A stretch of 32,637 nt of DNA from Planctomycetota bacterium. GTDB lineage: Bacteria > Planctomycetota > UBA1135 > GCA-002686595. Below are positions 20,954 through 32,637 of this stretch, in pieces. A program made the translations under genes and the position numbers. Within the stretch, counting starts at the first letter, position 1, and each line of letters begins with the position of its first letter. Where the stretch lies: positions 3,546-36,182 of the forward strand of contig NYXZ01000013.1 of assembly GCA_002686595.1 (NCBI GenBank), given 5' to 3'. A model generated the notes under the pieces. It was not told the DNA's origin. It did no database searches and saw only the letters and a program-made list of their open reading frames with translations.

Positions 20954-23233
20954 CTAGGCTGCTTCTCGACCCGGTAGGGTGCTCCCGCCGCGGCGGGCCG
21001 CGAAGAGAAGGGCTGCCACAATCCAGGCCAGGCCCGAGAGGGCCGCCTGGCCGCCGCCCGGGCCGCTGTCGGGAATCACGGCGCCGCAGCCACCGCCGCC
21101 TCCACCGCCGCCCGTCGAGCCTTGGAACAAAAAGCCGCCGGCCATTACCGCGGCCTGGCCCGTGATGGCGTCAACAACCGCAACAGCCGCGAGGCCTGCT
21201 CCGTGGCTCGGGGTGGTGACCTCCAGGGTGCGTTCATCGATGACCGTGATGGAGGCCGCCGGCGTGCCCCCGGAGCCGGTGGTGGGGTCCACGCCGAAGA
21301 AGACCTGGGCATCCGCTGGCAAATCGAAGCCGAGCAACTCAATCACATCTCCGCCCTGGGACGAACCCTGGGCCGGAGTCACCTGGGCCAGCTGCGGATC
21401 GGGTTGGGCTGCGTAGACAAAAGCATTGGTGGCCACGGCCCCACCGGGGTTTTCAACTTCCAAGAGATAGGGCCCGCCCGGGGCTCCACCGTTGGTGGTG
21501 AAGACAAGGGTGGCTTCATCCACGACTGAGACGCTGCCCTGAAGCTGGCCGTCGATGCGCACCACGGCTCCGCTGGCGAAGTTGCTGCCCCGCAGGGTCA
21601 CCGCCGTGCCCCCGGTGGACTCGCCGCCAGAGGGGAAGACGCTGGTAACCGCCGGCAGCGCGGCGGAGGTGAAAATGTTGACCGCCCGCCCCTCCACACC
21701 GCTGGCATCGATCACGACCACATCCCAGGTGCCGGCGGCGGTGGCCGCGGTGGTCAACATGATCGTGCTATCGTCCAGCACCGTGCAGCCGCCAGCGCCC
21801 ATGGGAGCGCCGTCCACATAGAGTTGATCGCCGATAACGACGCGAGCTCCGGCGCGAAAGCCGCTGCCGTTGATCGAAAGAACCGTGCCGCCGCCGCTGT
21901 CGCCGCTGGTGGGGCTGATGCCCGAGACGCCTGGATCCGGCGGTGTGATTTCTAGGCCCGCCACCAAGGTGGAGCGTCCCCCGCCGGGTTTGGTCACGGT
22001 CAGGTCCACATGGCCGGGGGCTGAACCGCTGGGCGCGGATATCTCGAAGGTCACGCGAGAGGTCATCCAGCTGGTGACGGAGACACCCAAAGTCGGGTCG
22101 CTGGCGGTCAAGGTGGCGTCGGAACTGAGGCCGCTGCCGCGCACCATGAGAGATGTGGTGGCGCCGGCGATGACGCGCAGGGGATAGCGGTCGGAAGTGC
22201 GCCCGAGGGAGAGCATCACATCCCCGTTGACCGCCAGTGTGCCGAGATTCAGGGCCTGGCCGCTGGAAATGGTATGGCTGCCGAACTCCGTGGTGGCGAA
22301 GTCCGTCGCCACCGTATGGCCACTACCAAGGTTGGCAACGGTGACCGGGTTGTCGAGGGGCGTGGCGTAGATGTTGTAAGTGCCCGCATCCAAGCCGCTG
22401 ATGCGGAAGGCTCCCGCGCCATTCGCCAGGTCCGCTCCCGCGGTGCGTCCGGCGCTGTCCACGGCCACCACATGGGCGCCGGCCACGGAAGCGCCGCCGC
22501 TGTGCTCGATGCTGCCGCTCAGGCTGGCAAAGGTCCCCGATGGATAGGCATCGCGCAATCCGTGACCATCGTCTTGCGCCAGACTGCGGTGCAGGATGAC
22601 GGTGGGATCGACATAGGGGTACATGGTGGCACCGGCCCAACCGGTGTGATCCAAGCCCAGCAAGTGGCCGAGTTCATGGGCGCCCACATCCTCCACATCA
22701 AAGGCCCCAGCCTGCCCAGATGTTGTGAAGCTGAAGCCCTGGCCATTGAACAGGATGTCCGCGTCGGCGATGGTCCCGCTGGAATAGAACCAGACCGGCG
22801 TGATGGCCACGGTGCCTGACCCCTGGGGGAAGTAGTCGGAGTCGTTCGACTCGTCGAAGAGAATCAGGTGAATGTCATCGCTGGCCCAGTCCGTGCGCGC
22901 CATTTGAGACGAGTTGGTATTCTCGTTCAGGTTGGCCGCCGACCCGCTGACCTCGTTCCAGGAGCGGATCGCCGAGCGCAGGGCTGGCAGGTGCTCGCCA
23001 GCGGTCAGATTGTCCGAGCCGGTGGATTGGATGACAACGCTGATGTTGCCCGGACTAGACCAGCGCAAGGGGTTGCCGTTTGTGGGATGGATAAGGCGCA
23101 CATGAGCCAGGACGGCGGCGGCGGAGGCCAACAGGACTGCTCCGCCGGCCAATAAGCGACGGCCCCCCAGGCCAAGGGTCCGAGGCTGGCGCCCCCGCCA
23201 GCGGGCCGGGCCCGCCTTACCGGCGGACTTCAC
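20954..23233 (-). CDS. secreted matrixin-like zinc metalloprotease with TIG-like repeats and a C-terminal sorting-type tail
   Basis: A 759-residue exported protein. A basic N-terminus and hydrophobic helix (27-43) form the signal peptide. Residues 45-232 are a metzincin catalytic domain with the zinc motif HELGHLLGLDH (186-196) and a Met-turn at M204. Residues 235-300 look like a carboxypeptidase-regulatory beta-sandwich. Then come about four IPT/TIG-like modules (roughly 345-430, 435-525, 528-608, 612-705), with repeated G-G-T-x-V-x-(L/I)-x-G-(S/T) patterns. The tail has a Gly8 run, C716, a hydrophobic helix (730-746) and RR, resembling MYXO-CTERM/GlyGly-CTERM sorting signals. It overlaps the upstream gene by 4 bases. 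Confidence 0.87.
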   Translation of the reverse strand: MKSAGKAGPARWRGRQPRTLGLGGRRLLAGGAVLLASAAAVLAHVRLIHPTNGNPLRWSSPGNISVVIQSTGSDNLTAGEHLPALRSAIRSWNEVSGSAANLNENTNSSQMARTDWASDDIHLILFDESNDSDYFPQGSGTVAITPVWFYSSGTIADADILFNGQGFSFTTSGQAGAFDVEDVGAHELGHLLGLDHTGWAGATMYPYVDPTVILHRSLAQDDGHGLRDAYPSGTFASLSGSIEHSGGASVAGAHVVAVDSAGRTAGADLANGAGAFRISGLDAGTYNIYATPLDNPVTVANLGSGHTVATDFATTEFGSHTISSGQALNLGTLAVNGDVMLSLGRTSDRYPLRVIAGATTSLMVRGSGLSSDATLTASDPTLGVSVTSWMTSRVTFEISAPSGSAPGHVDLTVTKPGGGRSTLVAGLEITPPDPGVSGISPTSGDSGGGTVLSINGSGFRAGARVVIGDQLYVDGAPMGAGGCTVLDDSTIMLTTAATAAGTWDVVVIDASGVEGRAVNIFTSAALPAVTSVFPSGGESTGGTAVTLRGSNFASGAVVRIDGQLQGSVSVVDEATLVFTTNGGAPGGPYLLEVENPGGAVATNAFVYAAQPDPQLAQVTPAQGSSQGGDVIELLGFDLPADAQVFFGVDPTTGSGGTPAASITVIDERTLEVTTPSHGAGLAAVAVVDAITGQAAVMAGGFLFQGSTGGGGGGGGCGAVIPDSGPGGGQAALSGLAWIVAALLFAARRGGSTLPGREAA

Positions 23234-23841
23234 CGCCCTCTCCCCAATGCCGCCACGCGCTTGCGGTTGGCGGCGGCCTCGATGCGCCCCATGGTCTCGG
23301 CGTAGTCCAGGATGGACCGGGAGTCTGCTGACTGAACACGCCCGCTGCTCTGATCGACGAGCTGCAAGCTCCCCTGTTCGCGCACCAAAGTACGCGTGCC
23401 GTCCAGGCCGTGGTGCAGGGTGAAGCGTCCCTGGGCCAGGCCCACGGGCACCCGGAGCTCGCCCCGGCCGGCCTCGGTGAGCATCAGGACCAGTTCCTCG
23501 CCCGCTGCCAGGCGCGGCATGCCCGCCAGCATCAGGCCGCTCCCGTCCGGTAGCACCCCCCCGGGCAGGCGCAGGACACGGGTCCCTTCGTGCTGGCCCC
23601 AGAGGGTGCGGTCGACGGTCATGAGGTAGTCCGTCTCCAGGCGGCCGCTCGCCCCCATGACCGGCGTGGCGGAGAGCACGCGGCCCTCCAGAACGAGGTC
23701 TGAACGCTCCACGAGTTCCTCGATGTCGAGGCGCAGGGCGGTGCCGGCCCGCGGGCCCGACGCCGGGCCGAGCAGGCCCATGAAGAGCACGGTGGCAGCG
23801 GCCGCGGCCAGGGCGATGGTGAAGGTGCGGAGGAGGCTCAC
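23230..23841 (-). CDS. exported protein of unknown function, partner of the metalloprotease
   Basis: A 203-residue protein from GTG 23841; the frame is open to 23934 but residues before this GTG do not look like a signal peptide. The product starts with a signal peptide (SLLRTFTIALAAAAATVLFMG). The mature part begins DIEELVERSDLVLEGRV, then a strand-rich region with VDRTLWGQHEG, LRLPGGVLPDG and AGEELVLML. This resembles small beta-rich exported domains often encoded next to matrixin-like proteases; no catalytic residues stand out. The ATGA overlap with the protease implies coupled translation. It could be a chaperone, inhibitor or shared surface protein; this is inference. Confidence 0.65.
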   Translation of the reverse strand: MSLLRTFTIALAAAAATVLFMGLLGPASGPRAGTALRLDIEELVERSDLVLEGRVLSATPVMGASGRLETDYLMTVDRTLWGQHEGTRVLRLPGGVLPDGSGLMLAGMPRLAAGEELVLMLTEAGRGELRVPVGLAQGRFTLHHGLDGTRTLVREQGSLQLVDQSSGRVQSADSRSILDYAETMGRIEAAANRKRVAALGRGR

Positions 23842-23906
23842 GGTGGGCTGGTGCGGCGGCGGGAAGAAGCCGCTCGGGATGGGGGTCCAGGCATGACTAG
23901 ACCTAG

Positions 23907-23918
23907 TAATGCGCATTA
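23907..23918. promoter_or_regulatory. perfect 12-bp palindrome TAATGCGCATTA (candidate operator)
   Basis: It lies 65 bases upstream of the likely GTG start of the protease operon, in the spacer 23842-24165. The half-site CGCATTA recurs at 24078-24084 with an inverted ATGCG at 24068-24072, nearer the divergent small gene. The rest of this 324-base spacer is locally A/T-rich and shows no further gene that I can support. Confidence 0.4.
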
Positions 23919-24165
23919 ATGACCTCCGCCTCATCGGCGGCTGGAAGGCCCGTTCTTGAGCTCAGCGGCGGGATGTCGCTATTTCTATTTGAGCTTCCTT
24001 GGCCTCCCCGAGGGCCCGCCAAAGGGCCTGCCCGGCCGCGCTTTGGCCATGGACGGGTCAAAAAACGATGCGCCTATCGCATTACCGCCACAAAACCCCC
24101 TTATTAGGCCCTAGAACCCGCCTGTGGCCCGATTCCGGGCTAGTATTCAGGCGAGTACCAAACCC

Positions 24166-24570: not shown

Positions 24571-26634
24571 CTAGCGCTCTTCGAGGCGTTCGTGAAGCTC
24601 ACGCAGGCGGTGATGCAGCTCCTCGATGCGTTCCTCCAAATCGCGCGTGTTGTGCTCCATGCTCCCATGGAATTCCTCCATGCGTTGCTCGACCATTTCA
24701 TGCAGTCGGCCCATCCGTTCGCGGACACGCTCCATGAACTCCCGAGCGTGCTGCTCGATTTCCGCGCCCACATCGTCCCCATGTCCATCGCCCTCGCCGC
24801 CGCCATCATGACCACGATGCGCATCACGGTCGCGACCGCCATCCTGCCCGCGCCGGCCATCGCGCTGGCCCTCGCCACCATGCTCGCCGTGGCCATCGTG
24901 TTCGCGACCGCCATCGTGCTCGCGCCGGCCAGCAGGCCCGCCACGACCCTCATGCCCATGGCCTTCACCGTGACCGCCATGCCAGCCGTCACCGGGTCCA
25001 GCGCTTTCCCAGCCCAGGCCGATGCCACCATGGCCCCCGGGCACCATCAACCAGGCGCCAGCGGGACCGGCACCATCATCTACACCATGACGCGACCCGT
25101 GACGCGATCCATGACCCGAATCGTGACCCGACCCGTGATGCGAACCATGCTGTGAATCCTGGCCAGGCTCTCCGTGACACTTTGCATCCGAGCCGCCGTG
25201 GCCCTTTGCATCATGGCCGCCGTGGCCCTTTGCCCCATGGCCGCCGTGGCCCTTTGCGCCGTGGCCGCCGTGGCCCTTTGCGCCGTGGCCGCCGTGAAGG
25301 TCAGGCCCGCCCTCGCCATGGCAATCTTCCTTGGAGCCACGGGGACAATCGGCGCCGGAACCATCTTTGCAATGACTGCCGGGGCCGCCCTGGCCCAAGG
25401 GACAGCCATCAAAGCTGGGGCCTCCCATTCCGTGTCCGCCGGGTACAAATACTCCGCCAAATGACTCACCGGGCCCCATCTTGAACATGGGCCAGCCAGA
25501 GGGATGCCTGCCCTGCTTGGAATCAGGCCCAGAACCGTGCCCCTCGCCCTCTTGGCGGTTGACCCGCCATCTATCGCCGCGCCCCTGCCCCGCTTCCCGG
25601 GGTTCGCCGCCGAAGCGCATGACGCGCTTTTCAACATGTCGCTCGCCGCCGTCATCCTGCACCTCGACATGGATCTCCATCTGGCCGTTGATGCCATCGA
25701 GGTCGATGCCCAGGTCCCGCAGACCGTGCAGTTGCTTCAACTTGCCCAGACCCTCTCCGCCCTTCAGCTGCTTGAGCCACTGCAGGCCCTCAAGCCCTCC
25801 GAGATCAATGCCAAAGCTCTCCTCGTCATCACCCACTCCGAGGACATGCACTTCGATCTCCATCTCGCCGTCCTCGCCATCGGCGGCGTTGAGTTGGACC
25901 TTCATCTGCCGGGGGGCGCCTGCGTCCTCTTCCCCATCGTGATCTAGGGCTTCAAAGAACATGTTGGGCCCAATTCCGCGCGCGCTAGGCCCCGAGCCCT
26001 GCCGCTCCACCTCTTCCACCTCGCCCAGCTCATCCCGGGCCACGAGCTCGATCAACGTGTCCTTCATCCAACCGTCGCCGCGTTCGACGCGCACACGCAC
26101 TTCGCTGCCGGCCTCGCGCTCACTCACAAAGCCTATCAGTTCCTCGATGCTCTGGACCTTCTTCTTGCCCACGCGCCGAATGACATCCCCGGCCTTCAGG
26201 CCCGCACGGGCGGCCCCGCTGTTGCCGTAGACGCCCTCGATCAAAACGCCGTCCTCGGCCTCGCCGATCATCAGGCCCAGGTAACCGTGGTCAGAGTCAG
26301 CCTCATCTTCCTCGGCGTAGCCAATCTGGCTCAGGATGGCCGGCATCTCACCGCCGGACTCCCGGAAGAGAGCCTCTAGGTCAGCGTCTTTCAGATCATC
26401 GCTGTCGAGCACCAGGGTGCGAACCCGGCGCTTGCCGTCCTGGCCCTGGCTGGTGAGCCCGAAGCTGAGCTGGCCCGCCGGAGCGTTCTGACCGGCTTGG
26501 CCAGGCGCTACCGCAATACTGGCGAGCGCGGAGGACACCACAAGCTCAGGGGCCGCGGCCTGTTGCTGGCCTGCCTCGCAGCAAGGGTCCTGTGCAAAGG
26601 GAGAGAGGGAGAGAATGAGTGTGGCGCTGAACAT
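24571..26634 (-). CDS. PDZ-domain protein with His/Gly-rich repeat region and C-terminal coiled coil
   Basis: A 687-residue protein. The start at 26634 is well supported: AGGAGG lies 7 bases upstream (26642-26647). A short hydrophobic N-terminus may be a signal peptide. Residues 117-200 are a PDZ domain (YLGLMIG carboxylate-binding loop, then GNSGAARAGLKAGDVIRRVG). Residues 210-340 are acidic. Residues ~360-630 are extremely rich in Gly and His, with five 8-residue repeats of the type HGGHGAKG near 446-485 and further degenerate HG(S/G) and EHDGG units. The end (632-687) is a charged coiled coil. The His-rich part could bind metal ions; that is inference. No protease domain accompanies the PDZ, so it is not HtrA-like. 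Confidence 0.8.
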   Translation of the reverse strand: MFSATLILSLSPFAQDPCCEAGQQQAAAPELVVSSALASIAVAPGQAGQNAPAGQLSFGLTSQGQDGKRRVRTLVLDSDDLKDADLEALFRESGGEMPAILSQIGYAEEDEADSDHGYLGLMIGEAEDGVLIEGVYGNSGAARAGLKAGDVIRRVGKKKVQSIEELIGFVSEREAGSEVRVRVERGDGWMKDTLIELVARDELGEVEEVERQGSGPSARGIGPNMFFEALDHDGEEDAGAPRQMKVQLNAADGEDGEMEIEVHVLGVGDDEESFGIDLGGLEGLQWLKQLKGGEGLGKLKQLHGLRDLGIDLDGINGQMEIHVEVQDDGGERHVEKRVMRFGGEPREAGQGRGDRWRVNRQEGEGHGSGPDSKQGRHPSGWPMFKMGPGESFGGVFVPGGHGMGGPSFDGCPLGQGGPGSHCKDGSGADCPRGSKEDCHGEGGPDLHGGHGAKGHGGHGAKGHGGHGAKGHGGHDAKGHGGSDAKCHGEPGQDSQHGSHHGSGHDSGHGSRHGSRHGVDDGAGPAGAWLMVPGGHGGIGLGWESAGPGDGWHGGHGEGHGHEGRGGPAGRREHDGGREHDGHGEHGGEGQRDGRRGQDGGRDRDAHRGHDGGGEGDGHGDDVGAEIEQHAREFMERVRERMGRLHEMVEQRMEEFHGSMEHNTRDLEERIEELHHRLRELHERLEER
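25181..25300 (-). repeat. 24-bp tandem repeat, 5 units, inside the PDZ gene
   Basis: Five consecutive 24-base units begin at 25181, 25205, 25229, 25253 and 25277, each starting TTTGC on the + strand and ending near GCCGCCGTGGCCC. They encode HGGHGAKG-type octapeptides on the minus strand. The units are nearly identical at one end and more diverged at the other, as expected after recent slippage or unequal crossing over. Confidence 0.9.
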
Positions 26635-26877: not shown

Positions 26878-29800
26878 CTACTGAATGGCCGCCGGCCAGC
26901 GTTCCGGGTTGTAGAGCCAGTCCATGACGGCCTGGATCTGCTGCCCATTGTCCGAGTCCTGGTATTGCTCCTGGTACTGGGGCGGGTCCGAAATGAAGTT
27001 GTCCGGCATGGAGGTCCCGGGATAGACCAGGGCCGGGCTCCAGAGCCAGTCCAGAACCCAACCTTCCCGCAGGCGTTCGCGGGTGCGTTCAAGATTAGGC
27101 GCCCAGGAGAGGGGCGCATCGAGCTGGTCCGGGCCCTGGCTGCCGTGGAAGTGGCACTGGAAGCAGTTGACGCCGTCGACGGCCACCGCATGTCCGATGC
27201 TCTGGAAAGGCGTGCGGGCACCGCGCAGACTCGGGGCGCGGCGCTCCACGACCTCATAGGAATCCGAGACCGCCCCGGTCATGGTGAAGCCCTGACTCGC
27301 GCCCCAGGCTTCTAGCTTTTTGAAGTTGGCGGCGGTCTCCGGCTTGGCACCGGCTTCGATGGCCGCCACAACCCGCCGCGAGAGCCGCGCGCCCGCGGCC
27401 ACCTCATCCAGGTCCAACCCTTGACCGCCGGAGCTGCGGGTCCTCATGGCCGGCCAGGAGCGTTCGCCGGATGCGTCCAGGCCAAGGGCCAAGCGCATGG
27501 TACGGGCGTAGCGCGAGGGCCACTCTTCACGGGCTTTGTAGGCGAAGTAATCCGCCACAGCCTCGGCTTCCCCCGGGGCCCAGTTGAAAGCTGGCATGCG
27601 CACGCGGATTTGCTGGCGCAGAGCATCGGGGTCGCGCAGGAAGCCGTAGAACCAAGCCTTCTGCAGCTTCTGGCCTTCACCCAGCAGAACCGGCGGCGCG
27701 AATGTCCAGCGAACCTTGTCCAATGGCTCCTCGCCGTAGTAACGGAACTGGCCGTCCACATCCTGCACGGCGCCTTCGCCCTCGGGATCGGCGGTGACGC
27801 TGTACCAGGCATCGTCCTCGTCCTGCGCATCGCTGTCGAAGAGTTCCACGCCATTGAAATAGTAGTCGTTCACCAAGCGCACGAAGTCGCCTCCCCGCGG
27901 GGGGGTGACGCTGATGATGCTGTCAAGATCGGGGAAGAATGCCTGGCCAGGAGCGCCGATTTCAGGTGTCGGCTCCAGCAAGCGGAAGACAGGATTTCCG
28001 AGTTCCTCTTCCATCCAGTCTTCCCAGGATGCGATCTGCTCACGCAGGGAAGCAAGGCCGTCCATAGTTGGCGGCAGGACCTCATCCGGGAAGGGCATCA
28101 CCTCGCAACTCACATCCAGCTGGTCGCCCGCGGCATTGGTGAAGGCCAGACGGCCCGCATCGATGACATGGCAGCCCTCGCAGTTTTTCTGCCGGACGAC
28201 GCGCATGCCAAAGTCCATGGCTGCCTGGGGGGCGGCGGGTTTCATCTCCGCCCGCTGCACCTCGTCATTCACCAAACCACCCACGAAGGTGACCAAGCCC
28301 TCGATCTGTTCGTCGCTGAAGTTGAACCTGGGCATGCGCGCCTTCTCACGCGGGTTCTTGACCTTGCCGTGGTCGAAGCCGCGCGGGGCTGCTAGCTTGC
28401 GGGCCAGCCACCCCTCCCGGTAATGGTGATCCAAGGCCGGCCGGCCCGGCAGGCTCTCGCGATAGGACATGGCAAAATCCAGTAGGTCCACGGTCTTGGA
28501 GGCCCAGTTTGTGAGCTCCGTGCCGATGGGCATCATGCTTTCCATACCTTTGATCTCATGGCACGAGAAGCATCCTTGATGGCGCACCAGGGCGGCGCCG
28601 ACTTCCTTGGTCAGGTAGGCCGTGTCATTCCAGGGATGCTCCGGCACCTCTCCAGCCAAGCGCCGTTCGACTTCCGTCCGCCCACTCTTGCCCAGGTACC
28701 AGCGGGCCAACTCAGCCAGCGTTTCGCGCTCCACTGGACTCTGGAATTCATTCCAGCCCTCGGGCACATCCGTGAAGTAGCCGTCCGGGTCATCCGCCAT
28801 ATAGGCCACCACATCGGCGATGTCCTGGTCAGGCAGGCGCAGATTTGGCATACGTGTCTCTGCCCACCAAGCCGCGGGATCCTTGATCCATGCGAAAAGC
28901 CACTCGGGATTGGTCTTGGCCATAACGCCTCGCAGGTTTGGTCCCACATCGTTATTGCGCCCGTGAACCAGCGCCAGGTCCGCAACCTGCGGTTCCTCGT
29001 CGCCGAAGGGCGCCATGTTGTGACAGGCCAGGCAACCCGATAGCCGGAAGACCTCGCGCCCGCGCTCCGCATCTCCGGTCATGGGGATCGCCGGTAACTC
29101 CTGCTTGGGAGCGGCGCTGCGCAGGAAAGCGGCAACGGCCCCCACCATGGTTTCGTTCCACTCCTGGCCGAGGATGTCACGGCCCTCGCCGTAGCGGGAG
29201 ACCGTCACCACTTCATCGGGAGCGTAATTCTCCAAGTGAAAGAACTGGGGCATCCAAGTGCTGGGCCGGAAGCTCTCGGGATCGCTGATCCAGGCGTCGA
29301 GGAAACCGGGACGCACCTTGGTTTGGATGTTCAGCAGGGACGGTCCGGGCTTGCGCGCGGTTGGAAACCACTCGACCCTGTGGCAGGCGTAGCAGCCATA
29401 GCGCTCGAAAGTGCGGTATCCGGCGGTAACCGTCGGCGCATCGTCCGCGATCAGCTCCATGGAAGTAGTGTGGCACTGGACGCAAGCGGCTTCGGTGTTT
29501 TCGCTGGTCAACATCGGGTAGTCCCAATGGTGCTGCTTGTGCCAATGGTGCTCCTCTGACCACTCGGCCCGCTCAGCTTCGTCATCCGGTCGGTGATCAG
29601 AGCGCACGAAATCCACAGCTTCGCCGGACCCCCGGTGGCAGATGGTGCAGCCCACGTCCTTGTAGGGATGGGGAGACGCGGCCGTCATATACAGGTCCAA
29701 CCGCGGGTGCGTCGCGAGGGGCTGGGCTTCACCCTCAAAACCCGCCCGGTCATAGCCCATGTGGCAGGTGACACACATATCGATGCGCGTCTTCTTGGTG

Positions 29801-30552
29801 AAGTTGAGTTCGAAGGTCAGGTTGTCAAGCACCACCTTGCGCACCTTCAGATTGGGCTCGACAAAATCCAGCCCCGGCATGTCGCGCACCATGTTGGCCA
29901 CCTGGCCAGCCCCATCACTGGGCGCCAGCTGCTCCAGCTTGCTGGCGAGTTGGCGTAGGTCTTTCGTGCCAGACGACAGGGCCGTCTCCGCTGCGCTCAC
30001 CTCGCTGCGCAGTTGCTCGAGACGGGCCTGAGCTTCCAGGTACTCCGCCTGGGCAGCCGCACTGACCTTGGCCAGGTCAAACATCTCCTTCTCATCGGAG
30101 CGCAGCTCACGGCGCTCGCTGCCGTCGTCGGCGCTGCCCGCATTGATCTGCTCTAGCAGCTCTTCCTCGGTCACATAGCGTTCCCAACCAAAAAACGCCT
30201 TGGCGGTCTTGGCCTCCTGTTCCTTGGTATAGGCGATCTCCTTCAAGCCGTGAACTTCCGTCTCAAGCACGGCAAGCTCGGTGGAACTGGCGGCGAGTTG
30301 CTCGCGGGCCGCCGCCAGGGAAGCTTCCAAGTTGTTCTTTGCGCTCAGGAAGTCCTCGGTTTCCAGGCCCGCCAGGGCTTGCTCGGTCTTGGCGATATCC
30401 AAGGCCCGGAACTCCCGCTGATAGGGTTTCCAGGCGCGGTCCCAGTCATCGATGACCATCCAAACCGAGGTCACCAGGAACAAGATGCTGGACACCAGAA
30501 ACCAGGAGTTCAGCTTGGGGATTGAGTAATGCGTGTCGCCGCGGTCAGCCAT
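26878..30552 (-). CDS. octahaem cytochrome c subunit of a quinol-oxidising bc-type complex
   Basis: A 1224-residue protein. Residues 17-34 are a membrane anchor, followed by a long coiled coil (about 45-215). Eight CXXCH sites start at residues 260, 302, 357, 387, 507, 661, 791 and 1130. The first three lie close together in a His-rich stretch and look like bis-His haems. The later five are class I cytochrome c domains with candidate Met ligands in (R/W/S)MP motifs at M434, M568, M740, M986 and M1182. The seventh domain carries a ~180-residue insertion. The protein is periplasmic and should accept electrons from the Rieske/cytochrome b part encoded just upstream. No homologue can be named with certainty; the coiled-coil stalk and the size are unusual. 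Confidence 0.88.
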   Translation of the reverse strand: MADRGDTHYSIPKLNSWFLVSSILFLVTSVWMVIDDWDRAWKPYQREFRALDIAKTEQALAGLETEDFLSAKNNLEASLAAAREQLAASSTELAVLETEVHGLKEIAYTKEQEAKTAKAFFGWERYVTEEELLEQINAGSADDGSERRELRSDEKEMFDLAKVSAAAQAEYLEAQARLEQLRSEVSAAETALSSGTKDLRQLASKLEQLAPSDGAGQVANMVRDMPGLDFVEPNLKVRKVVLDNLTFELNFTKKTRIDMCVTCHMGYDRAGFEGEAQPLATHPRLDLYMTAASPHPYKDVGCTICHRGSGEAVDFVRSDHRPDDEAERAEWSEEHHWHKQHHWDYPMLTSENTEAACVQCHTTSMELIADDAPTVTAGYRTFERYGCYACHRVEWFPTARKPGPSLLNIQTKVRPGFLDAWISDPESFRPSTWMPQFFHLENYAPDEVVTVSRYGEGRDILGQEWNETMVGAVAAFLRSAAPKQELPAIPMTGDAERGREVFRLSGCLACHNMAPFGDEEPQVADLALVHGRNNDVGPNLRGVMAKTNPEWLFAWIKDPAAWWAETRMPNLRLPDQDIADVVAYMADDPDGYFTDVPEGWNEFQSPVERETLAELARWYLGKSGRTEVERRLAGEVPEHPWNDTAYLTKEVGAALVRHQGCFSCHEIKGMESMMPIGTELTNWASKTVDLLDFAMSYRESLPGRPALDHHYREGWLARKLAAPRGFDHGKVKNPREKARMPRFNFSDEQIEGLVTFVGGLVNDEVQRAEMKPAAPQAAMDFGMRVVRQKNCEGCHVIDAGRLAFTNAAGDQLDVSCEVMPFPDEVLPPTMDGLASLREQIASWEDWMEEELGNPVFRLLEPTPEIGAPGQAFFPDLDSIISVTPPRGGDFVRLVNDYYFNGVELFDSDAQDEDDAWYSVTADPEGEGAVQDVDGQFRYYGEEPLDKVRWTFAPPVLLGEGQKLQKAWFYGFLRDPDALRQQIRVRMPAFNWAPGEAEAVADYFAYKAREEWPSRYARTMRLALGLDASGERSWPAMRTRSSGGQGLDLDEVAAGARLSRRVVAAIEAGAKPETAANFKKLEAWGASQGFTMTGAVSDSYEVVERRAPSLRGARTPFQSIGHAVAVDGVNCFQCHFHGSQGPDQLDAPLSWAPNLERTRERLREGWVLDWLWSPALVYPGTSMPDNFISDPPQYQEQYQDSDNGQQIQAVMDWLYNPERWPAAIQ

Positions 30553-30598: not shown

Positions 30599-31681
30599 TC
30601 AGACGTTGAAGAAGTACTCCGGGATGCCGACGATGTACTTCAGGTTCAGCGTCCAGCGCATGACCATCTTGATCGGCACCAGGACGAACCACAGGAAGAG
30701 GTGCATCATCACGTTGTAGCGCTCGGGCCCCATTTCGGTGGCGATCTTGCGGAACAGCGTCTTGCCCAGGATTGGGGGCAGTATCACAAAGTAGGCGAAG
30801 AGGCTCGCCAGACCCGGTGCCTCCCGTAGCCAGATGTTCTCCGGCCGCGGTTGATCGAGCAGGTAGATCCAGAAGTACTCCGACAGATTCACATTGACCA
30901 TCGGCTCGAGTTTGTGTGGATCCCAATACTCGAAGGGGCCAAAGAAGGACCAGTTTGGTCCGCGCAGGAAGGTGCCCATGATGATCAGCGAACACCACAA
31001 CAGCAGGAAGCCCACCAGGAAGAAGTTGATGGCGAAGGGGCGCTCCTCATAAGTGTAGTAGCCATTGCCCTTGGGATTTTTGTCCAGATAAGGAATGGCG
31101 CACAACCCGACGATGATGAAGCTCGGCAGCAATACGCCCGCGATCCAGGGATCGAAGTAGACGAGCAGTTCCTGCAGGCCCAGGAAGTACCAGGGCGCCT
31201 TGGAGGGGTTCGGCGTCCGCGCCTGGGAGGCGGGTTCCTCGATGGGAGCTTCGATCTCGATACTCCAGGCGATCAGAAAGACCGTAAAGAGCACCATGCA
31301 GATCAGTTCGATGTAGACCAGATCCGGCCAGACATGGACCTTCTGCTTGGCGTATTGCCCCTCCAGGGTCGGCTCCCCGCGCTTGATCCGCTCGTCGTTC
31401 AGCACCGCCCGGCGCAAGAAAAGCCAGGTGAAGAACAACAGTGAGCCGATCATCATGATGATCGGGATGTTGTCAGGCTTGGTGACGATCCGGTTGAAGT
31501 TGGGGTCGTCCCAGGAAACCAGGAAGAACGCCACGATCAGCACACAGGTAATGGCGAACACCACTGGGTGGCTGGCCCACTTGCGGAAGCGGACCACCAA
31601 CAGGAGCAGCAGCGCTGTCCCAATGGAATAACGCGTCGGCTCCGACAACCAGTCAGCCAGGTCCTTGATGGAATCGATCAT
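30599..31681 (-). CDS. cytochrome b C-terminal (subunit IV-like) protein with extra membrane helices
   Basis: A 360-residue membrane protein. The central part resembles cytochrome b6f subunit IV or the C-terminal half of cytochrome b: NPSKAPWYFLGLQELLVYFDPW contains APWY (162-165) at the position of the quinol-site PEWY motif, followed by helices near 180-197 and 217-236. Three hydrophobic helices before it (about 19-31, 39-56, 72-90), another at 122-140, and two after it (290-305, 325-342) exceed the three of subunit IV. It sits 9 bases after the b6-like gene stop and 46 bases before the octahaem cytochrome. Glu of PEWY is replaced by Ala; this residue takes part in proton transfer in bc complexes. 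Confidence 0.87.
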   Translation of the reverse strand: MIDSIKDLADWLSEPTRYSIGTALLLLLVVRFRKWASHPVVFAITCVLIVAFFLVSWDDPNFNRIVTKPDNIPIIMMIGSLLFFTWLFLRRAVLNDERIKRGEPTLEGQYAKQKVHVWPDLVYIELICMVLFTVFLIAWSIEIEAPIEEPASQARTPNPSKAPWYFLGLQELLVYFDPWIAGVLLPSFIIVGLCAIPYLDKNPKGNGYYTYEERPFAINFFLVGFLLLWCSLIIMGTFLRGPNWSFFGPFEYWDPHKLEPMVNVNLSEYFWIYLLDQPRPENIWLREAPGLASLFAYFVILPPILGKTLFRKIATEMGPERYNVMMHLFLWFVLVPIKMVMRWTLNLKYIVGIPEYFFNV

Positions 31682-31690
31682 GGGCTAGAG

Positions 31691-32467
31691 CTACAGGGGG
31701 CCTGAGATGCCGCCGTCCTTACGCACACGCCAGAAATGAACCGCCATCAGCACGGCGGCGAATAATGGAAAGCCGACGCAATGCAGCACATAGAAGCGCA
31801 GCAGTGCGCCCTCGCCCACAAAGCGTCCCGCCAGGAGGGCGAAGCGGATGTCGTCCCCGGCGTGGATGAAGTCCAGGCCACCGAAGCTGACCAGGGCCGC
31901 CCCCGGCCCTTCGTGACCGATGAAGGGCGTGGCACGGGCCATGTTGGTGCCCACGGTAATGGCCCAGACGGCCAGTTGGTCCCAGGGCAAGAGGTAGCCG
32001 GTGAAGGACAACAGAAGCGTAATCACTAGCAGGATCACGCCGATGTTCCAGTTGAACTCGCGGGGCGGTTTATAGGAACCGGTCAGGAAGACGCGGTACA
32101 TGTGCAACCAGACGGTGATCACCATCAAGTGCGCCGCCCAACGGTGCATTTCGCGCATGACACCCAGGGGCACATGTTCTCGCAGGGCGAAGATGTCCTG
32201 ATAGGCCAGCTCCGCCGTCGGCCGGTAGTAGAACATGACGAGCAAGCCCGTGATGGTCTCCACCAGGAACAGGAAGAAGGTCAAGCCACCCATACACCAG
32301 GTGTAGGAGAGGTTGATACCGCTGCGGCGCACCTTCACCGGGTGCAGATGCAGGAAGAAGTTCGACAGGACTGCCAGGGTCCGGTTGCGTGGTGTATCCG
32401 GGTAACCGTGGCGGAAGATCGAACGCCAGATCTGGCTGGCGCGGATGTAGGCGAACAGTTTTTCCAT
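31691..32467 (-). CDS. cytochrome b6-like protein (diheme, with haem ci cysteine)
   Basis: A 258-residue membrane protein matching cytochrome b6 throughout, for example TGLLVMFYYRPT, LTGSYKPPREFNW and GYLLPWDQLAVWA. The haem ligands are H108/H122 and H229/H244. The second pair is 15 apart, as in b6f-type proteins, instead of 14 as in mitochondrial cytochrome b. C58 in YTWCMGG aligns with Cys35 of b6, which binds the extra haem ci covalently on the n-side, so a third haem is likely. The subunit oxidises quinol together with the subunit-IV-like and Rieske proteins. Upstream, GGCTCGGGG occurs three times (32470-32503) with no clear Shine-Dalgarno. Confidence 0.92.
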   Translation of the reverse strand: MEKLFAYIRASQIWRSIFRHGYPDTPRNRTLAVLSNFFLHLHPVKVRRSGINLSYTWCMGGLTFFLFLVETITGLLVMFYYRPTAELAYQDIFALREHVPLGVMREMHRWAAHLMVITVWLHMYRVFLTGSYKPPREFNWNIGVILLVITLLLSFTGYLLPWDQLAVWAITVGTNMARATPFIGHEGPGAALVSFGGLDFIHAGDDIRFALLAGRFVGEGALLRFYVLHCVGFPLFAAVLMAVHFWRVRKDGGISGPL

Positions 32468-32542: not shown

Positions 32543-32637
32543 TCAGGCCGTGTAGGGCAGGAAGGCACCCTCCCAGGTCCACTGCCCCTTCTCTTCTTGG
32601 AACTTGGTGTTCTTGTCGATCAGCAGTTGGCCATCCT
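32543..32637 (-). CDS. probable Rieske iron-sulfur subunit, C-terminal end (partial)
   Basis: Only the last 31 residues are present; the gene runs off the window edge. The TGA is at 32543-32545 on the minus strand, and the peptide ends WTWEGAFLPYTA. The cluster-binding motifs are outside the window. The assignment rests mainly on position: in such operons the Rieske gene directly precedes cytochrome b. The segment DGQLLIDKNTKF also resembles the last strands of Rieske proteins. Another small bc-complex subunit remains possible. Confidence 0.5.
   Translation of the reverse strand, partial: DGQLLIDKNTKFQEEKGQWTWEGAFLPYTA

Follow-up and report, generated by a model that had tools for sequence, protein, structure and literature searches.

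The gene at positions 26878–30552 on the minus strand of the window (the whole stretch of planctomycete DNA analyzed here, 32,637 nt) encodes, from an ATG start codon, an octahaem cytochrome c subunit of 1224 aa, and it is the final gene in an operon that comprises, in this order, the genes for a Rieske protein, a cytochrome b6, a subunit IV and the octahaem protein. This operon probably encodes a menaquinol-oxidising b6-type complex III, distributed throughout the phylum Planctomycetota, that passes electrons via the eight haems to a cupredoxin and from there to an oxidase. One anammox version of the octahaem complex has been modelled before, whereas the probable cupredoxin partner is new.

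The octahaem subunit and its haem ligands

The eight CXXCH sites that had been predicted are indeed present, at residues 260, 302, 357, 387, 507, 661, 791 and 1130. Composition-preserving shuffles contained 0.004 such motifs on average and one at most, which rules out a chance origin, and full-length homologues with 45–56% identity rule out an artefactual or frameshifted reading frame. Hydropathy confirmed the predicted membrane anchor as the sole transmembrane (TM) segment (residues 16–34; 30451–30507). It is followed by a helical stalk (residues 42–209; 29926–30429) and by three haem sites with proposed bis-His ligation, CVTCH (haem 1, residues 260–264; 29761–29775), CTICH (haem 2, 302–306; 29635–29649) and CVQCH (haem 3, 357–361; 29470–29484). 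For the remaining five sites a Met is the proposed distal ligand: CYACH with Met434 (haem 4, 387–391; 29380–29394), CLACH with Met568 (haem 5, 507–511; 29020–29034), CFSCH with Met740 (haem 6, 661–665; 28558–28572), CEGCH with Met986, separated by a long insert (haem 7, 791–795; 28168–28182), and CFQCH with Met1182 (haem 8, 1130–1134; 27151–27165), all on the minus strand. Pfam models of class I cytochrome c domains match the C-terminal part of the protein, the N-terminal haem cluster gives weak matches of the c7/c3 type, and the cytochrome f family is not among the Pfam matches. An Rfam search returned no RNA element. A DNA-binding-like segment at residues ~1046–1090 appeared suggestive by eye and was dropped because it is poorly conserved.

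The comparison of the haem ligands covered 26 homologues, drawn from about 16 families of planctomycetes. Exactly eight CXXCH sites are present in all of them, and there is no variation in the five Met residues (M434, M568, M740, M986 and M1182, all followed by Pro in an MP motif) or in three additional His residues (H282, H295 and H320). Altogether, the eight haem sites and the eight distal ligands are invariant or nearly so; L110 aligns poorly at haem 1 and has a long insert after this haem, but the CXXCH motif is still present. The ligand invariance across the phylum thus supports the originally proposed series of three bis-His haems followed by five Met-ligated haems, the three additional histidines being candidate distal ligands of haems 1–3 as a set. 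In the genome collection, 38 contigs encode close homologues, full-length or partial, and almost all of these contigs are labelled Planctomycetota. With a profile of the trihaem region, matches at E ≤ 0.001 were obtained in 233 of the 392 Planctomycetota genomes; generic cytochromes may account for the weakest matches. By eye, PDZ-like inserts were seen in two octahaem proteins: the one in L095:8133-12299 lies between haems 5 and 6, and the one in L110:8224-12234 separates haem 1 from the His proposed as its ligand.

The helical stalk

An AlphaFold2 model of the octahaem protein was calculated from an alignment of 41 sequences and begins at residue 25 (protein number = model number + 24). It contains long helices at residues ~42–137, with short breaks, and at residues 145–209, that is, two helices with a break near residues 138–144 and not a single rod. 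The model thus supports a helical conformation for about 168 residues (~42–209) next to the anchor, where a coiled coil of ~170 residues had been predicted; the coiled coil itself is plausible but not proven. The stalk is rich in E, K, R, D, Q, A and L, and its heptad periodicity is modest in the window protein (z 1.9) and distinct in homologues (z up to 6). The distance from the anchor to the first haem is at least 188 residues in 25 of 26 diverse homologues, with L110 (84 residues) as the exception. The trihaem module (haems 1–3), modelled without cofactors, was predicted with low confidence (pLDDT about 30–50). A Foldseek search with the octahaem model returned only matches to unrelated coiled coils, none of them below E 0.05.

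In the published model of the homologue Kustd1485, long helices are wound around the complex and around its Rieske protein (PMC12954380). By analogy, the long helices of the window protein would most likely act as a brace that holds the c subunit against the Rieske protein and the core in the membrane, rather than as a mast. The same model makes it doubtful that the stalk lifts electrons to distant acceptors, as had been suggested.

The operon core

The subunit-IV-like gene (30599–31681, minus strand; 360 aa) and the cytochrome b6-like gene (31691–32467, minus strand; 258 aa) lie upstream of the octahaem gene and are co-directional with it. They are preceded by the last 30 codons and the stop codon of the Rieske gene (32543–32637, minus strand). 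The window ends with its contig, and 99 bases at this end recur exactly at the start of contig C119, which carries the remainder of this gene, the sole Rieske match in the genome. The same order of Rieske, cytochrome b, subunit IV and octahaem genes was found in relatives with enough sequence. The predicted location of the octahaem gene in a b6-type Rieske/cytochrome b operon was therefore borne out, and we judge the electron-transfer role assigned to the subunit to be right.

The next gene downstream of the octahaem gene (24571–26634, minus strand) encodes a PDZ-like protein of 687 aa with a long Gly/His-rich repeat region (GHGGHGAKGHGG...) and is possibly metal-binding. Further downstream lie a gene for a metalloprotease-like protein with the sequence HELGHLLGLDH (20954–23233) and one for a short secreted protein (23230–23934), both on the minus strand; genes resembling these two (clusters 8 and 10) occur near the octahaem operon in several relatives.

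The ligands of the core cofactors are strictly conserved in the 46 operons compared. The Rieske motifs CTHLGC and CPCHGSGF are invariant, and so are the four b-haem ligands of cytochrome b (His108, His122, His229 and His244), which show the 15-residue spacing of b6 types, and Cys58 for haem cn (46 of 46). The cytochrome b protein of the window matches PF00033 with E 1.8e-40. In subunit IV, the Qo motif KAPWY, in place of PEWY, is invariant, as is Glu125, which we take from motif comparison to occupy the position of chloroplast Phe40. Low-potential complexes of the menaquinone type are associated with ligation of haem cn by Glu (PMC12954380), and menaquinol is the presumed substrate of the planctomycete complex. 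Another invariant residue of cytochrome b, His40 (46 of 46, including operons without an NAD(P) oxidoreductase gene), is the equivalent of Kustd1481 His62, the proposed ligand of an extra b haem leading to the NAD(P) reductase (PMC12954380).

A cytochrome b with four b-haem His residues and a Rieske protein encoded in the same operon are the features of a bc-type complex, and the split into separate cytochrome b and subunit IV genes together with the haem cn Cys assigns it to the b6-type subclass. It does not belong to the b6f complexes proper, because the octahaem protein takes the place of cytochrome f.

Comparison with known complexes

The original prediction held that no complex with such an architecture had been described. 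However, the Rieske/cytochrome b complex Kustd1480–1485 of Kuenenia stuttgartiensis contains the same octahaem subunit, Kustd1485, with long helices (PMC12954380). It shares with the window the Rieske protein, a four-helix b6-like cytochrome b, an extended subunit IV and an octahaem cytochrome c with a TM anchor. A matching operon is present in L092–L094, three hydrazine-synthase-positive genomes from family f49. The cytochrome b of L092 has His62 and Arg266/Lys267, in the numbering given for Kustd1481, and a gene for an NAD(P)-oxidoreductase-like protein of 570 aa (567–571 aa in the three loci) lies between the cytochrome b and subunit IV genes. Such an oxidoreductase gene was found in no other locus examined, and in the window the two genes are separated by only 9 bases. 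The octahaem protein of L092 aligns with the window protein over the full length (26% identity; the profile match in hydrazine-synthase-positive genomes reached 482 bits). Therefore, the window protein is homologous to the described subunit, and the complex it belongs to has no NAD(P) module. Further differences are the size of the octahaem protein (1224 aa versus about 946 aa in the Kustd1485 type) and the number of predicted TM segments in subunit IV (7 versus 5, by the same method). The window genome has no hydrazine synthase match, and a haem-copper oxidase is present.

Other known systems are more distant. The second Kuenenia complex, Kuste4569–4574, likewise combines a b6-type core with a multihaem cytochrome c in place of cytochrome f, but it contains the hexahaem Kuste4573 and an additional octahaem enzyme similar to hydroxylamine oxidoreductase (HAO), Kuste4574, and its multihaem protein is described as having little similarity to Kustd1485 (PMC12954380). 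With cytochrome b6f the window complex shares the split cytochrome b and subunit IV, the haem cn Cys and a copper-protein acceptor (plastocyanin in b6f, proposed here for the window). It differs in the eight-haem CXXCH protein versus the monohaem cytochrome f, in KAPWY versus PEWY, and in the Glu at the Phe40 position. The actinobacterial bcc complex is an example of a multihaem c subunit, the dihaem QcrC, that can hand electrons directly to the oxidase; QcrC has two haems and another size, and the profile match to the window protein is weak and local. The nearest NCBIfam models for the two b subunits are ExtP (260 bits) and ExtQ (60 bits), cytochromes b of the selenite/tellurite Ext operon, with scores under the curated cut-offs of 290 and 150, and the octahaem protein has a weak local match to ExtS (22.7 bits; cut-off 100). 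Searches of openly licensed papers returned no phylum-wide or cupredoxin-linked description of the complex.

A probable cupredoxin partner and its linkage to oxidase genes

Clustering of the neighbouring genes revealed, in relatives, a gene that immediately follows the octahaem gene and encodes a secreted protein. This protein has the ligand set of a blue copper protein, a His (in HN) followed by Cys-x2-His-x2-Met, from which two ligands are missing in the divergent member L110. Pfam cupredoxin models match weakly, under their cut-offs, and among PDB entries a profile of the family matches blue copper proteins, including amicyanin. An AlphaFold2 model (pLDDT 92) retrieved amicyanin with Foldseek (E 1e-6; target TM-score about 0.7, also to plastocyanin), and pseudoazurin was matched as well. 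Predicted fold and ligands alike thus identify this protein as a type-1 copper cupredoxin of the amicyanin/plastocyanin fold.

A cupredoxin gene is adjacent to and co-directional with the octahaem gene in 46 of the 55 loci with enough room, although these loci are not independent, many being from close relatives. The genomes checked contain 0–7 cupredoxin copies, and we estimate that adjacency by chance would be expected at well below 1% per locus. No adjacent cupredoxin was found in the anammox loci L092–L094, nor in L103, L111, L050, L059 and L061. In six loci, from two well-separated groups of the tree (L034, L036, L040 and L060; L104 and L105), the cupredoxin forms a C-terminal extension of the octahaem protein, resulting in fusion proteins of 1554–1973 aa with a long acidic, proline-rich linker. 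In addition, CoxII and CoxI genes lie downstream in 7 of 20 diverse loci, and in six of these a dihaem cytochrome c gene is located between the cupredoxin and CoxII genes.

In the window genome, the sole cupredoxin gene is not beside the octahaem gene but at the edge of another contig, where CoxII, CoxI and a CoxIII-like gene follow it immediately; this CoxI is the only COX1 found. The genome is fragmented and 86% complete, so that other electron acceptors may be missing from the assembly. Taken together, the gene contexts make the cupredoxin the likely electron acceptor of the octahaem protein. They point to a nearby blue copper protein and a cytochrome oxidase instead of the distant periplasmic acceptors of the original prediction.

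Proposed electron pathway and alternatives

In the pathway that we infer, the octahaem protein would be the c-type subunit and the functional replacement for cytochrome f or c1. Quinol would be oxidised at a Qo site built by cytochrome b and subunit IV, the first electron passing to the b haems and haem cn, and the second to the Rieske cluster and on to one of the haems in the bis-His trihaem module close to the membrane. From there, it would travel along the five His/Met class I haems to the cupredoxin, separate or C-terminally fused, and then to a haem-copper cytochrome c oxidase. The direction of flow, like the potentials and distances of the haems, is presumed in this scheme. Bis-His haems usually have low potentials, and the entry step from the Rieske cluster may therefore be uphill, which counts against the mechanism.

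The leading alternative concerns the acceptor. The cupredoxin linkage might be structural or regulatory, serving copper handling for oxidase assembly, while a small cytochrome c accepts the electrons; the dihaem cytochrome c encoded in the six loci would suit this role, and in the window genome the cupredoxin adjoins CoxII, a place where copper-insertion proteins also occur. We regard this as rather doubtful, because the cupredoxin has been fused to the octahaem C-terminus twice and its ligand set is amicyanin/plastocyanin-like. Eight haems, about 168 helical residues and C-terminal class I cytochrome c domains could also form a long-range wire, in which the stalk lifts the haem chain off the membrane toward distant periplasmic or extracellular acceptors. 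However, the neighbours and fusions indicate a cupredoxin, either soluble or attached, and an oxidase in the membrane. In addition, the genes adjoining the octahaem gene included none for an outer-membrane conduit, and the helices wrap the core in the published homologue model (PMC12954380), so that such a wire appears unlikely.

The two remaining alternatives concern the chemistry of the complex. A complex that bifurcates electrons in order to reduce NAD(P)+, the role proposed for Kustd1480–1485 in anammox bacteria, would agree with the full-length homology of the octahaem protein to the anammox operon and with the invariant His40. With the oxidoreductase gene limited to the three f49 loci among those examined, and neither such a gene nor room for one between cytochrome b and subunit IV in the window, we consider this very unlikely for the window complex. 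The number of haems also superficially resembles that of octahaem HAO and nitrite reductases (ONR), and Kuenenia Kuste4574 (PMC12954380) provides a precedent for a bc complex that carries a multihaem redox enzyme of nitrite or hydroxylamine type. But the invariant distal His and Met residues of the window family are as numerous as the haems, so that no open catalytic site is evident, the Pfam matches are to class I cytochrome c domains and weakly to c7/c3 and not to HAO, and the trihaem profile has no PDB match to octahaem enzymes. On the basis of this ligand set and these family matches the catalytic HAO-type enzyme was rejected, its probability being close to negligible.

The preferred reading is thus the electron pathway from menaquinol to the cupredoxin. 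In its fullest form it states that the phylum has a b6-type menaquinol complex in which an octahaem protein with three bis-His and five His/Met haems replaces cytochrome f, with a dedicated and sometimes fused cupredoxin leading toward the haem-copper oxidase, a non-photosynthetic counterpart of b6f and plastocyanin of which the NAD(P)H-linked version of anammox bacteria is one branch. We hold the arguments for and against this broad statement to be evenly balanced.

Outside of anammox bacteria, the middle part of the respiratory chain of Planctomycetota is poorly described. According to the anammox study, it is not clear why so many c haems are needed (PMC12954380). The same subunit, with the same eight haems and the same ligands, is found across the phylum, also where hydrazine synthase or the NAD(P) module is missing from the genome, and thus anammox chemistry alone cannot explain the haem chain. 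The His of the extra b haem is invariant even where the oxidoreductase gene is absent, which bears on the proposal of NAD(P)H production. The recurrent cupredoxin, fused in two lineages, offers a concrete candidate acceptor, one that is accessible to experiments in cultivable species.
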